Shown here: in pieces, positions 22,882 to 28,250 of the stretch | Position numbering within the stretch: the first letter of the stretch is position 1 | Layout of the letters: every line of letters starts with the position of its first letter | Assembly: GCA_014879535.1 (NCBI GenBank) | Contig: JACSRX010000039.1 | Location: 1 to 61,688 of the forward strand | DNA: 61,688 nucleotides | Direction of reading: 5' to 3' | Source: Chthoniobacterales bacterium | GTDB lineage: Bacteria > Verrucomicrobiota > Verrucomicrobiia > Chthoniobacterales > JACTMZ01 | Translations under genes and position numbers: made by a program | Notes under the pieces: model-generated | Told to the model about the DNA's origin: nothing | What the model saw: only the letters and a program-made list of their open reading frames with translations | Databases searched by the model: none

Positions 22882-25044
22882 ATGGCCACCACCCTTGAAT
22901 CCAGCACCTTGGCGGGAGCCCAGCAGCACGAGCGGGCGGAAATCCTGCAGCTGACGTTCCAGCGCTACAAATACATGCTGCAGAACTGGTGGTGGATTCC
23001 GCTCCTCACCACGGCTGTCGGCCTCGGCGTGCAGGCATGGATGGTGCTGAGTGCCCCCCCGCAATACCAGTCCGGCGGCCGGCTCATGGTTTCGGGCAGG
23101 ATCGCGCTGCCCGAGGGTGCGGTTTACAACGAGGAGGCGGCCAACTTCTTCGGCACCCAGCTTGAACTCCTGCAAAGCAGTGAGGTCGCGCGCCGCGCCG
23201 ATGCCCGCGTCATGGCGCTGAATCCCAACCTCGAGAAGGTGCGCGTCCGCCTGTTCGCCAGCGTCATCCCCAAAACCTCCATCTTTGCCGTCACCGCCCA
23301 GGGCCCGCAGCCGCAGCAGACCAAGGCCTACCTCGATGCGGTGATGGACGAATACATCGCCTACCGTCGTTCCCTGCGATCCGACAAGTCGGAGATGACG
23401 CTCAGTGCCATCACGGACCAGGTGGTGGATCTTGAAAAGGAACTGCGCAAAGCGGAAGAGTCTCTCTTCGACTGGCAGAAGGAGAACAACCTCGTCTTCC
23501 TGCAGGAGGAAGGCAACAGCGCGGGAGTTTATCTTGCGCAACTCAACCGCACGATGGCGAACCTCCAGACGGAATACCAGCTGCTTGAAACGCTTTCCCT
23601 CGAGCAGAATCTCGAGCGCCAATCCAAGCTCGACCGCCTCACCGAGGGCAATACCGACGGTGTTTCCGCCATGATGCAGGGCTTCGGGCCTGCGGCGGAC
23701 TACCTCAAGGCCCGCCAATCCCTGCAGTTGCTCAAGGCGCAAATGGTGGAGTTGAGGGTCAACCTCAAGGACCGCCACCCCAAGATCGGTGATCTCCAGC
23801 AGCAGATCGCCATGCAGGAGCGGCTCATGGAGATTTACCAGGGCCAGACGGCCGAGCAGTTCGCCTCCCAGATGGAAACCCTCCGCGTGCGCATCAAGAA
23901 CACGGAGGCCTCGATCAAGGAATGGGAGGTCAAGGCCCTCGATCTCAGCCGGCGCTTGGGGGAGTTCGAGCGCCTCAAGGGCAAAGTCGAGCGCCTCAAG
24001 GGGCTCTACAACCGCCTCCTCGCCAGCGTGCAGAGCGTGGATGTCAACCGCAGCATCGATCAGGATGTGGTCACCGTCATGGAATACGGTTCGCAGCCTG
24101 CTGTCGTGCGCCCGGACCTCGGCAGGGCCCTGTTGATGGGCGGTCTTGGCGGCTTTGCCGTCGGCCTCGGCATCCTGCTCCTCATCGGCAAATTGGATGA
24201 CCGCTACATCTCGGTCTCCGAGCTGGAGGCCCACTCCGACCTCGATGTTCTGGGGCAGATCCCGCGCCTCAAGGCTTCCGATGCGGAGCCGCTCGTCGAG
24301 AACGACGAGCGCCACATCCTTGTCGAGTCATTCAGGAACATCCGATCAAGCATGCTGTTCATGCCGGAGCCGGGGTTCAACCCCAAGAGCTTCCTCATCA
24401 GCAGCGCCATTCCGGGTGAGGGCAAATCCTCCCTTGCCATGAACTTGGCGATCACCATGGCCTTGGCGGGATCCAAGACGCTCTTGGTGGACGGCGATTT
24501 GCGCCGCGGGCGCCTCAACCGCCACTTCTCCGTGGCCGGGGATCCCGGCATCGCCGAGTGCATGAAGGGGCTTGCAACCCTGGAGGAGACGGTTTCCACG
24601 ACTTCGATCCCCAACCTCAGCTTCCTGCCGCGTGGCAAGGCGATGGCTGGCGGCGCCGAGCCGCTCCCGGGCGCCAAATTCAGCGCCGTCATCGACACCC
24701 TTCACGATCAGTTTGATTACATCATCATCGACAGCTGTCCCGTGTTGGCGGCGGACGATTCCAGTGCCATGGCCCCATTGGTCGATGCCGTGTTTTTCGT
24801 CGTCCGCGCCCGATTCACTTCCGCCCGTCTTTTCATCCGTTCCCTCAAGCTGCTCGCCGTCCGCGGGGTCAGCGTCCGCGGACTCATCTACAATTGTGCG
24901 GAAATGGGCAGCTCGGACTACCCGTATTACCAATACAAGGAATACCACCGCACCGCAGGCGCCGCCTCCGAGCAGGGCTCCCGCGGGAGACTCGGCGAGT
25001 CCGAGGAAGCCGACGAGGAAGCCGAGGAAGAGGAGAGGGTGTAA
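22882..25044 (+). CDS. Wzc/GumC-like polysaccharide co-polymerase with tyrosine-kinase domain
   Basis: The 720-residue inner-membrane protein has an N-terminal Wzz domain with a membrane helix around residues 34-56, long coiled coils (about 170-400) and a second helix (about 415-435). The C-terminal BY-kinase domain has Walker A SAIPGEGKSSLA (about 507-519), Walker A' LLVDGDLRRG (about 534-543) and Walker B YIIIDSCPVLAADD (about 612-625). A tyrosine cluster YPYYQYKEYH near residue 685 is the expected autophosphorylation tail, followed by an acidic end. It should control chain length and export of the polysaccharide by cycles of phosphorylation. No polymerase, flippase or glycosyltransferase follows it. 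Confidence 0.9.
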   Translation: MATTLESSTLAGAQQHERAEILQLTFQRYKYMLQNWWWIPLLTTAVGLGVQAWMVLSAPPQYQSGGRLMVSGRIALPEGAVYNEEAANFFGTQLELLQSSEVARRADARVMALNPNLEKVRVRLFASVIPKTSIFAVTAQGPQPQQTKAYLDAVMDEYIAYRRSLRSDKSEMTLSAITDQVVDLEKELRKAEESLFDWQKENNLVFLQEEGNSAGVYLAQLNRTMANLQTEYQLLETLSLEQNLERQSKLDRLTEGNTDGVSAMMQGFGPAADYLKARQSLQLLKAQMVELRVNLKDRHPKIGDLQQQIAMQERLMEIYQGQTAEQFASQMETLRVRIKNTEASIKEWEVKALDLSRRLGEFERLKGKVERLKGLYNRLLASVQSVDVNRSIDQDVVTVMEYGSQPAVVRPDLGRALLMGGLGGFAVGLGILLLIGKLDDRYISVSELEAHSDLDVLGQIPRLKASDAEPLVENDERHILVESFRNIRSSMLFMPEPGFNPKSFLISSAIPGEGKSSLAMNLAITMALAGSKTLLVDGDLRRGRLNRHFSVAGDPGIAECMKGLATLEETVSTTSIPNLSFLPRGKAMAGGAEPLPGAKFSAVIDTLHDQFDYIIIDSCPVLAADDSSAMAPLVDAVFFVVRARFTSARLFIRSLKLLAVRGVSVRGLIYNCAEMGSSDYPYYQYKEYHRTAGAASEQGSRGRLGESEEADEEAEEEERV

Positions 25045-25115: not shown

Positions 25116-25188
25116 GGCTGGGTAGCTCAGTTGGCAGAGCAGAGGACTGAAAATCCTCGTGTCGGGGGTTCGATTCCCTCCCCAGCCA
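25116..25188 (+). tRNA. tRNA-Phe (GAA)
   Basis: The 73-nt sequence folds as a complete cloverleaf: acceptor GGCTGGG/CCCAGCC, D arm GCTC-AGTTGGCA-GAGC, anticodon stem GAGGA/TCCTC with loop CTGAAAA (anticodon GAA), T arm GGGGG-TTCGATT-CCCTC, and discriminator A at 25188. The 3' CCA is not encoded, since ACCT follows the acceptor stem. Immediately downstream lies a mobile-element scar; tRNA 3' ends are common integrase targets. Confidence 0.97.
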
Positions 25189-25697
25189 CCTCTCTAATAA
25201 TCAAGCACTTACGGAAAGAGCGGGGCGATTGTGTGCCGTAAGTGTGCCATCCGCGCCCCAAAATCTCCCCACGTTGCGCGAGAATTGAGGTTGTCCGAAA
25301 AGGCGGAAATCGGCCTTTGGGGAAAGAATCTCCCCGGTAACATCGGTCCGATTGCGTGAGTGCTGATAAAAAAAGAAGGGGGGTTCCCTCTCTCTCTCCC
25401 TACTCCTCGCACAAGCACCCGCCCCCGCTGCCAAGCACAAGCGCCGGCCTCGATCTCCGCGGCTCATCGTTTCCGGGTTGCTACACGCGCCCGCGCCCTT
25501 TGTTTTCGTGCCTCTACTGCCAGCCCCGCGCGCCGATCATCCCCAGGGCGAACAAGGGCGAAGGCCTCCGTCCTTCTGCCGTCCTCACTTTGCGAGCCTC
25601 GGCTCCTTCACCCTCAAAAAATTTTCCACCGCGCGCGCCTCTGCCTCCCCCTTGGGCCGCTCGCACTCACCCGCCAGCGCGCAAGCGTTCCAAGCAC
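25189..25697. other. 509-bp non-coding remnant beside tRNA-Phe
   Basis: No convincing gene is present; the open frames have no recognisable products. Seen directly are a 9-bp inverted repeat CACTTACGG/CCGTAAGTG (25206-25214, 25236-25244), direct repeats GTGTGCC four bases apart (25231-25237, 25242-25248) and the start of a series of AAGCAC motifs. The position directly after a tRNA and before a truncated mobile-element gene suggests the residue of an integrated element. Confidence 0.55.
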
Positions 25698-25859
25698 TCA
25701 CGGGGGCGGAGACGTGGGGAGACGTTGCGGATTCTCGCGGACGGGCCGCGAGTGCTTTTTTTCCTCCAAGCGTTTAACAAGCACTTCCAAGCACTCCGCC
25801 TCAGCCGCCGCTGCGCGCACCGCCACGGGCCGCCAGCGCGCCCGCTCTCCGCGTCTCAC
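25698..25859 (-). CDS. possible 53-residue protein coupled to DUF3987 remnant
   Basis: A GTG at 25859 overlaps the TGA of the upstream DUF3987 remnant (GTGA), the classic arrangement for translational coupling. The frame gives a basic helical peptide with the stretch ECLEVLVKRLEEKKHSRP and ends in a Pro-rich tail. It may be a small gene of the decayed element. It could also be chance, because the repeated AAGCAC motifs fall inside it. Function unknown. Confidence 0.3.
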   Translation of the reverse strand: MRRGERARWRPVAVRAAAAEAECLEVLVKRLEEKKHSRPVRENPQRLPTSPPP

Positions 25860-26446
25860 CGTTGCGCCTGCATGGGGGAAAGCCGATAGCGCACCGGCTG
25901 CCGGCCTTTGCCTCCCGGCTCCGGCTTGCTGGCTTGAATCCGCCCGTCCTCGGCCCACGCCGCGAGCAACGTCTCCGCCTCGGCCTTGTCCTTGGCGAAT
26001 CGCCGGCCGCTGTAAATGTCGCGCGCCGTCACGCCTCCGGGCCGGCCAAGCATGAAGCGCCGCACCCGCTCCCAAAGCTGGTCCGCCTCCGCCGCTCGCC
26101 GCGCCGCCAGGAACTCCGATTGTCTCCGCTTGAACCAATCCCGCACGGCCAGCCCCGCCGCCGCGTCATGCTCACGAAGGGGCCGCTCATGGCCGATGCA
26201 CCCGCCCTCGGCAACGCCATACGTCCCCGGCCCGCGCTTCTCGATCTCGATATGCCGGAAAACGTGAAGCGCCAGCGCGAGCCGGATTGCCTGCTCCGTC
26301 AGCCGGCTTTCAAACGGGTCCAGCGCGCCGTCCGTCCGTTCAAGAATCCCGTTCCAATCCCGCGCAAACATCCGCCGCGCCTCCGGCTCCATGTCCACCG
26401 TGTGCGGGGCCACATTCGCAGACATCCGTCCGCATTCCCATCTGGG
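25856..26446 (-). pseudogene. 3' fragment of a DUF3987 (mobile-element) gene
   Basis: The frame from the ATG at 26425 (open only to 26446, after a TAA at 26447-26449) encodes 189 residues matching the C-terminal part of DUF3987 proteins. These occur as primase/helicase-like genes in integrated elements and plasmids. Seen are EARRMFARDWNGIL, the R-[LI]-A-L-A-LH-V-F-RH helix, a winged-helix-like end and the terminal G-RQPVRYRLSP. The N-terminal ATPase part, normally several hundred residues, is missing, so this is a remnant. It sits about 670 bp from tRNA-Phe with no integrase, supporting a decayed integrated element. Family assignment is from pattern memory. Confidence 0.6.
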
Positions 26447-26475
26447 TTACACCACCCCGGCGAAGTTTGCAGCCA

Positions 26476-26522
26476 GCTGTTTGGCTCCGCTCCGGCCTAC
26501 GGCCTCCGCTACGCCAAACAGC
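26476..26522. repeat. long hairpin (10-bp perfect inverted repeat)
   Basis: GCTGTTTGGC (26476-26485) and GCCAAACAGC (26513-26522) are perfectly complementary around a 27-base loop that itself contains GGCC-TAC-GGCC. It lies 27 bp beyond the broken end of the DUF3987 remnant. There is no T run, so it is not a standard terminator; it may mark a boundary of the former element. Confidence 0.6.
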
Positions 26523-26660
26523 AAAACCAACCAAATCTCTCATAGAACCCGGTCCAAAATGCGGGGGCATGTCAGGGCCCACCGGACTTCAAATTCCATG
26601 CTTGCGCCGCGAAGCCTCCCGAGATGGATTCCCGGCGCTTCCGTCGATTCCTCCAGGTCC

Positions 26661-28250
26661 TCAGGCCCTCCGTGGTCGCGCGGCCGCGGCGGCGAGGGTT
26701 GCGAAGGTGGCGCCGAGGCAAAGCATGGAGAACAGTTCGCCGACCCGCATGTAGGGGGTGACCGGCGGGTTTTCGGGGACGGCGATTTCAGCCAGCATGA
26801 CGCCCTCGGCGAAGGTGTCGCCGTCGGTGGAGGCGAGGCGCTGGCGGATGCGGCCCAGATCGTCGATCACGCAGGTGACGCCGGTATTGGCGCAACGGAC
26901 CATGGGGCGCCGGGTTTCCACGCAGCGGAACACGGCATGGGCCGCGTGCTGGCGGGAAGCCGCGGAGCGCTTGAACCAGCCGTCGTTGGTGATGTTGACG
27001 AAGAGTTGCGCGCCCTGGTTGGCCGCGTCGCGGGCGAGGTAACCCAGAGTGTCCTCGAAGCAGATGAGCGGAGCGATCGCCACCGGCGGCGAGGGAAGAT
27101 GGAAGATGACCGGACCGGCTCCCGCATCGAAGTCGGCCGGCACCAGATTGCCGACGATGATGGCGAAGAGGGGGAAGCTCTCCCGGAAGGGAATGTATTC
27201 CCCGAACATGACAAGGTGGGTCTTCGGATAGACCTGCGGCGCGGCGTCTGCACCGGTCATCAGGACGGCGGCATTGTGGTCCGCCTCGTGGCTCAGGATC
27301 AACGTGCCGAAGAGCAGCGAGAATCCGCCGCGGCTGATGTAGCTGTTGACGAACTCGTGGGCCAGGGGATCTTGAAAAAACCCCCGGGGTGTGGCGGCCT
27401 CCGGCCACAGCAGCAGGTCCGGTCGAAGGGCGAGTGCGGCGTCGCTCTGGCGGGAGAGGGTCTCGTAGATCCGCTCCTCGAAAGCACGGTTCCATTTTTG
27501 GTCCTGGGGGATGGAGGGCTGCACTGCGGCCACGCGCAGTGGCACGGACCCGCCCGGTTCGCCGAACTGTCGCAGGCCGTAGCCGAAGGCCGCCACGATG
27601 AGGGCGATCGTGAGGGTGAAGTCGAAATGGGCGCGGATTCTCCCGCCACGGGCCTCGATCATGAGGCGGCGGACGGTGGCCACTGCAATGGCGGACGACA
27701 GCACGGCAAGGAAGGAGAGCCCGGCGGGCCCGGTGAGAGAGGCTATCTGGATGAGCGGGACGTTTGCGTGGAGGGCGATGCCCAGCGCATTCCAGCCGAA
27801 GCCGGTGAAAACGTGGCCGCGGAGGAATTCAACAGAAACCCAGGCGCAGGCGGCAAGAAGACCGGTGGCGAGGTTGCGCCAGGAACTCAGCCAGACTGGG
27901 TGTTCGTCCTCGGAGCGGCCCCGCGGGGTTGCGATGACAAAAACGATCGCGGACCACAGGGCGGGGTAGACCGCGAGGTAGAGGCACAGGACGAACCATC
28001 CCGCGACGGTGACCGTGTGGAGCCACGAGAGCGATCCGAGGAAGTAGATGAGGCCGGTGAGGTAGCCGAGCTCGGCTTTGCGCAACAAGGGGTGACGGGG
28101 GTGGGTGGGGCCGAACCAGATGGCCGCAAAGAGGGGTGCCAAAGCGATCCATGCCAGCCAAGCCTGGTCGAAGGGAGCGAAGCAGAGAACGAGCAGGATG
28201 CCGCTGACGGCGGCGGCGACCCAGGGCCAGAGGGAGCGGAGAAGGGGCAT
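26661..28250 (-). CDS. lnt: apolipoprotein N-acyltransferase
   Basis: The 529-residue inner-membrane enzyme adds the third acyl chain to apolipoproteins, the last step of lipoprotein maturation. The N-terminal half has about six to seven membrane helices; the C-terminal half is a nitrilase-type (CN hydrolase) domain. The catalytic triad is visible: Glu in LLLWPEAATP (about 281), Lys in YPKTHLVMFGEYIP (about 343) and Cys in PLICFEDT (about 396). The final membrane helix is present (ELFSMLCLGATFATLAA), so it is full length. It starts 63 bp after the sugar transferase stop and may share that gene's promoter. The window encodes lipoproteins that need this enzyme, such as the protein at 60027-61592. 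Confidence 0.93.
   Translation of the reverse strand: MPLLRSLWPWVAAAVSGILLVLCFAPFDQAWLAWIALAPLFAAIWFGPTHPRHPLLRKAELGYLTGLIYFLGSLSWLHTVTVAGWFVLCLYLAVYPALWSAIVFVIATPRGRSEDEHPVWLSSWRNLATGLLAACAWVSVEFLRGHVFTGFGWNALGIALHANVPLIQIASLTGPAGLSFLAVLSSAIAVATVRRLMIEARGGRIRAHFDFTLTIALIVAAFGYGLRQFGEPGGSVPLRVAAVQPSIPQDQKWNRAFEERIYETLSRQSDAALALRPDLLLWPEAATPRGFFQDPLAHEFVNSYISRGGFSLLFGTLILSHEADHNAAVLMTGADAAPQVYPKTHLVMFGEYIPFRESFPLFAIIVGNLVPADFDAGAGPVIFHLPSPPVAIAPLICFEDTLGYLARDAANQGAQLFVNITNDGWFKRSAASRQHAAHAVFRCVETRRPMVRCANTGVTCVIDDLGRIRQRLASTDGDTFAEGVMLAEIAVPENPPVTPYMRVGELFSMLCLGATFATLAAAAARPRRA

Follow-up and report, generated by a model that had tools for sequence, protein, structure and literature searches.

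A truncated DUF3987 gene behind a tRNA-Phe gene as the probable scar of an integrative element in a Chthoniobacterales genome

The stretch of DNA analyzed here, referred to as the window, is a contig of 61,688 nucleotides (C39) from the draft genome (3.17 Mb, 97 contigs) of a Chthoniobacterales bacterium. It holds an intact tRNA-Phe gene (GAA) at 25116..25190 on the forward strand, as identified by ARAGORN and Rfam, which is presumed to have served as the integration target with attB in its 3' end; copies of that 3' end are seen in the elements of the related genomes G010 and G003. On its left lies a gene for a Wzc-like tyrosine kinase (22882..25044, forward strand), which is conserved across relatives, and the same Wzc-type gene precedes tRNA-Phe in five genomes of the same genus. 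The tRNA gene is followed by a short att-proximal motif, ATCAAGCACTTACG (25200..25213, forward strand), common to the tRNA-Phe flanks of G010 and G007 (ATCAACGACTTRCG), by the inverted pair CACTTACGG / CCGTAAGTG starting at 25206 and 25236 (25206..25244, strand not assigned), and by the direct repeat GTGTGCC-GTAA-GTGTGCC (25231..25248, forward strand). The two GTGTGCC copies of this repeat begin at 25231 and 25242, the first one 41 bases past the tRNA, and with their period of 11 bp they resemble integrase arm sites, just as a previous reading made from the sequence only had described them. Direct repeats of this period, at least 7 bp long and inside 70 bp, occur at a frequency of about 0.5-0.7%, as estimated from shuffles and by sliding over the window. 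The whole interval of 665 bases between tRNA and the next open frame (25191..25855) contains no convincing gene and makes up the non-coding, tRNA-proximal end of the element, comparable in length to the 0.8-kb gap of the tRNA-Gly element in G003. Five of the nine AAGCACT copies of the window fall into it; they were considered as plasmid-type iterons, with an enrichment that is modest (about 0.02 by shuffling).

The next open reading frame, at 25856..26425 on the reverse strand, encodes the C-terminal 189 residues of a DUF3987 helicase-like protein, including its winged-helix end. Against PF13148 it aligns to positions 273-356 of 364 with 20.5 bits, under the curated cut-off of 27, because only the end of the protein is left. 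A local profile was built from 13 other DUF3987 proteins with the remnant itself excluded, and the remnant was its sole match among the 487 open reading frames of the window (E 3.9e-18, positions 342-496 of 504), such that homology to DUF3987 proteins is clear at the level of the profile. The piece that is missing, which the sequence-only reading had taken to be the N-terminal ATPase part, amounts to the N-terminal two thirds; upstream of the ATG the frame continues for a few codons only (26426..26449, reverse strand) and is closed by a TAA at 26447-26449, and no N-terminal DUF3987 fragment is present in any frame. The predicted structure is poor in the first half and shows a confident winged helix at the end. 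The remnant thus comprises the last part of the helicase-like domain and, in addition, a winged helix. It matched nothing in PHROGs or NCBIfam, a sequence search returned no solved structure, a fold search gave general winged-helix matches only, none below E 0.001, and there were no close relatives of the 189-residue protein among viral contigs or phage and plasmid records. The single GTDB-contig match (Opitutae, L102) was rejected as a piece of the frame of a FAD-linked oxidase, and a match in G030 was set aside since it does not lie within a convincing gene. The best pairwise match (E 3e-7) comes from another family of the order, and the remnant is distant from the complete DUF3987 proteins of its own genus.

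No integrase gene lies between tRNA-Phe and lnt, and a second copy of the tRNA-Phe 3' end is not present in the window, even with 3 mismatches allowed in 23 bp, in agreement with the earlier statement that both had gone; the direct copy that had been proposed to lie beyond the scar was not found there. The longest exact tRNA-Phe word recurring in 25191-26760 is 8 bp, and the rest of the genome yielded only short partial matches of the tRNA-Phe 3' end, to other tRNA-like ends. Base differences between this tRNA-Phe and those of other genomes (G-C for A-T in the acceptor stem) were considered as the mark of a replaced 3' end; this was rejected, plain divergence being simpler because both sides of the stem have changed. 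Two other loci of the same genome deserve mention in their own right. Close to the end of one contig, an integrase gene adjoins an incomplete tRNA 3' end (L042, 16763-17972) and represents another tRNA-integrated element. On contig C90, about 17 tRNA genes are arrayed in 2.4 kb (L160, 5235-7635), with an integrase gene a few kb away at C90:10338-11615; they form a tRNA-array unit that perhaps belongs to a phage or to a mobile element of another kind.

The remnant is joined by a junction of 26450..26660, which is without att copy, to the chromosomal gene lnt (apolipoprotein N-acyltransferase, 26661..28250, reverse strand). Inside the junction lies a palindrome (26476-26522) with 10-bp arms. It occurs once in the genome, which leaves the idea of a dispersed repeat behind a rearrangement unsupported, and by eye its core boxes do not fit an integron attC. 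In relatives lnt adjoins yqgE, and the usual right neighbors of tRNA-Phe are a gene for a 212-residue protein and katG; in the genome of the window, yqgE lies among other genes on contig C90, and the right neighbor of tRNA-Phe is found on contig C66. Hence, the stump sits on a chromosome junction. A rearrangement rather than slow decay in place may have removed the right part of the element, given that the sequences which originally adjoined tRNA-Phe on the right and lnt are both located elsewhere in the genome. The element may have been cut by this rearrangement or may already have decayed by then, and the absence of an att copy from the window is expected under both histories.

The tRNA-Phe locus of the same genus was surveyed for comparison. 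In G006 the usual right neighbors start 38 bases after the tRNA. In G010 it carries an insert of 7.8 kb, at whose far end an integrase gene adjoins the terminal 34-38 bp copy of the tRNA 3' end, and in G003 an integrase gene stands beside a 45-bp copy; furthermore, a type I restriction gene adjoins tRNA-Phe in G001, and a type I methyltransferase gene adjoins its usual right neighbor in G002. As a consequence, tRNA-Phe is to be regarded as an insertion site in this genus, with further tRNA-Phe genes being free of elements. The flank of the window is not identical to an element-free flank in relatives; it differs. Its stretch right after the tRNA, ATCAAGCACTTACGG, aligns with ATCAACGACTTACGC of G010, ATCAACGACTTGCGA of G007 and ATCAATGACTTAAGG of G004, and the tRNA-Phe flanks of G005, G006, G001 and G008 lack the att-proximal motif. 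Three of the matching sequences had served to define the motif pattern, and their match is no test of it. A single further exact match was obtained in about 1.16 Mb of loci, located in the leader of an integrase gene, directly upstream of it, on contig C9 of the window's own genome; this is the only independent match. The period-11 repeat was present in 5 of 57 tRNA flanks, namely in the window, at tRNA-Phe of G010, at tRNA-Gly of G003 and G006, and at one tRNA-Glu of G004, and the four flanks other than the window all adjoin or end an integrase-bearing element. In the element-bearing relatives its position agrees with that in the window (+37 to +64 past the tRNA), and it occurs also at tRNA-Phe of G004, slightly farther from the tRNA. 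The window thus supplies a footprint by which past insertions may be recognized, consisting of the post-tRNA motif, the repeat with its 11-bp period, and the 3' end of a DUF3987 gene.

A search of tRNA-Phe flanks in related genomes for full elements with DUF3987 and an integrase had been proposed. Integrase genes and att copies do occur there, but the complete DUF3987 elements reside at other tRNA genes. Those of G003 and G006 (about 6.0 and 6.9 kb) extend from tRNA-Gly to a copy of its 3' end measuring 31-33 bp, and that of G051 (6.7 kb) from tRNA-Ala to an exact 37-bp copy. All three have the DUF3987 gene directed at the tRNA, such that its C-terminal end is the part closest to the tRNA, and the integrase at the far end. 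The stump in the window has the same polarity, and its gap to the tRNA is similar to that in G003. Among 17 integrase genes examined at related loci, 8 share a 4-nt overlap with the adjoining gene; the integrase genes of G003, G006, G051 and the tRNA-Phe element of G010 belong to these 8. Between this overlapping gene and DUF3987, G051 carries an AlpA-type gene (Pfam HTH_17); the counterparts in G003 and G006, 105-106 residues long, are AlpA-like by eye and without Pfam match. These two elements encode in addition a protein of 321-322 residues before DUF3987, whose SGGKS-H motif resembles AEP primases, again by eye. The sequence-only reading had pictured complete forms as carriers of unknown cargo, and some cargo is indeed present between tRNA and DUF3987; the elements are small, though, and the cargo is modest, with an FGE-sulfatase-domain protein in one element and HTH proteins in another. 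Across the loci inspected, FGE-sulfatase-domain cargo was seen in two tRNA-integrated elements (L103, 14141-15130; L032, 3757-5013), one with a PEP-CTERM motif and one with SAM domains. The tRNA-Thr region of G010 (L106, 7676-17807) contains a separate integrase-DUF3987 element, which is flanked by a copy of the tRNA 3' half and, at its opposite side, by one of the 5' half (84% over 38 bp), and was possibly inserted at the 5' part of the tRNA.

Along these lines, the window contains a real integration scar, of an ordinary kind, and not a working element. Attachment duplications at tRNA-Phe in the genus, DUF3987 elements of the same polarity elsewhere, and the shared post-tRNA signature support the scar interpretation, which on this comparative basis is mostly right and in part supported; of the original proposal, it is the decay that is put in doubt, as a rearrangement may have taken the right part. 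Probably, the tyrosine integrase of a small integrative element inserted this element by recombination at the tRNA-Phe 3' end, leaving a restored tRNA behind. The element would have had a layout of tRNA, non-coding or cargo region, DUF3987 reading toward the tRNA, AlpA-like regulator, int-overlapping gene, integrase, and a copy of the tRNA 3' end. Subsequently, either a deletion or a rearrangement of the chromosome would have taken everything beyond the C-terminal third of DUF3987, including the integrase and the distal att site, and this loss would have joined the stump to lnt. To this history as a whole, from the insertion at tRNA-Phe to the stump joined to lnt, we assign a probability of roughly 0.8. 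That the lost part had the gene order of the relatives is suggested by the complete elements. As the window holds neither att copy nor integrase, only the comparison places the insertion at this very tRNA-Phe. The genome itself is a fragmented assembly.

The alternative that survives best, and which we still consider unlikely, derives the stump from a prophage or another DUF3987-carrying integrative element instead of a small satellite-like one. DUF3987 is reported on varied mobile elements. An order-wide search gave DUF3987 matches in 27 of 213 genomes, and elements of the order include other layouts and sizes, such as one larger element of 15 kb at tRNA-Gln, and G064 and G045, where the integrase adjoins the tRNA. 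The elements with the polarity of the stump (those of the genus and G051) are compact, however, with no capsid or conjugation genes among their scanned proteins. A complete, working short protein, for instance one that the host has retained for binding DNA through its winged helix, would account for 189 open codons with coding-like base use and for the confidently predicted fold, and G074 has a second C-terminal-only DUF3987 frame (224 residues), of the same polarity, at a distance of about 640 bp from its tRNA-Pro. Yet the clearly complete relatives span about 500-690 residues, chance long open frames are common at this G+C, no promoter-like site was seen, a clade of short complete DUF3987 proteins was not found, and the short copy in G074 shares its contig with a full-length one, which makes this explanation improbable. 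The two copies in G074 (C152; full-length, L149 8857-10935, and C-terminal-only, L150 640-1314) are separated by cargo and are perhaps tandem elements, one of them decayed. Just as improbable is an assembly chimera joining tRNA-Phe, remnant and lnt: the assemblies of G002, G003 and G009 break exactly at tRNA-Phe, a sign of mixed populations or repeats, but the join in question lies within a 61.7-kb contig and has no long repeat at the junction. That repeats and DUF3987 piece are unrelated chance neighbors of tRNA-Phe is the least credible reading of all, for while no single short repeat carries much weight (about 0.5-2% by shuffling), polarity, similar distance and repeat position match the complete elements, and the motif is common to other element-bearing sites.

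Regarding the insertion and subsequent loss favored here, several known systems invite comparison. DUF3987 has been described as a predicted helicase of mobile-element replication, occurring in modules of AEP primase and DUF3987 helicase (PMC5862659). The proteins discussed here share this predicted role, but in the relatives DUF3987 is a gene of its own without demonstrated primase fusion, and the copy in the window is truncated. With tRNA-targeting genomic islands and their remnants the window has in common the insertion in a tRNA 3' end, the intact tRNA, and a scar after integrase loss; element-derived sequence right after the intact 3' end is present, whereas the copy at a far boundary and the integrase are absent and the chromosome is rearranged at the scar. 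P4-like satellites and PICIs combine integrase, AlpA-like regulator, primase/helicase and a chromosomal site, as the complete relatives appear to do, with a replication protein that differs from theirs; P4 or PICI packaging genes were not seen in the scanned proteins of the complete relatives.

The closest parallel is provided by the phage-inducible chromosomal minimalist islands (PICMI) of the Vibrionaceae, whose genes follow the order int, an overlapping gene (by 1, 4 or 13 nt), alpA and DUF3987 primase, with cargo between primase and target gene; complete PICMI have been reported from Vibrio genomes only, with fis as target (PMC10803314). The complete relatives likewise measure about 6-7 kb, are flanked by direct repeats, carry int, a gene overlapping it by 4 nt, an AlpA-type regulator and a DUF3987 replication protein, and have the replication gene closest to the target gene with cargo in between. 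In contrast to PICMI, they target tRNA genes (tRNA-Gly and tRNA-Ala, with tRNA-Phe in the window) and not fis, lack a DUF5906 match, possess a separate 321-residue frame before DUF3987 in G003 and G006, and have no known helper phage. The set of int, alpA and DUF3987 is present in G051, the only one where Pfam detects the AlpA-like protein, and in G003 and G006, where that protein is AlpA-like by eye only; in the window, where a DUF3987 stump is all that is left, it is incomplete. The complete relatives are thus built like PICMI, yet they are not filed as PICMI. By analogy they would be phage satellites, replicating by means of a primase/helicase that they encode and relying on a helper for packaging. 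Tentatively, and with odds slightly short of even, they may constitute a tRNA-targeting, PICMI-like satellite branch outside the Vibrionaceae that was repeatedly gained and lost, the window recording one such loss. It is this family of complete relatives, more than the ordinary scar, that is worth following: if the assignment is true, the minimal satellite plan reaches beyond its described range and does not depend on fis, with the same build at tRNA genes of another order.
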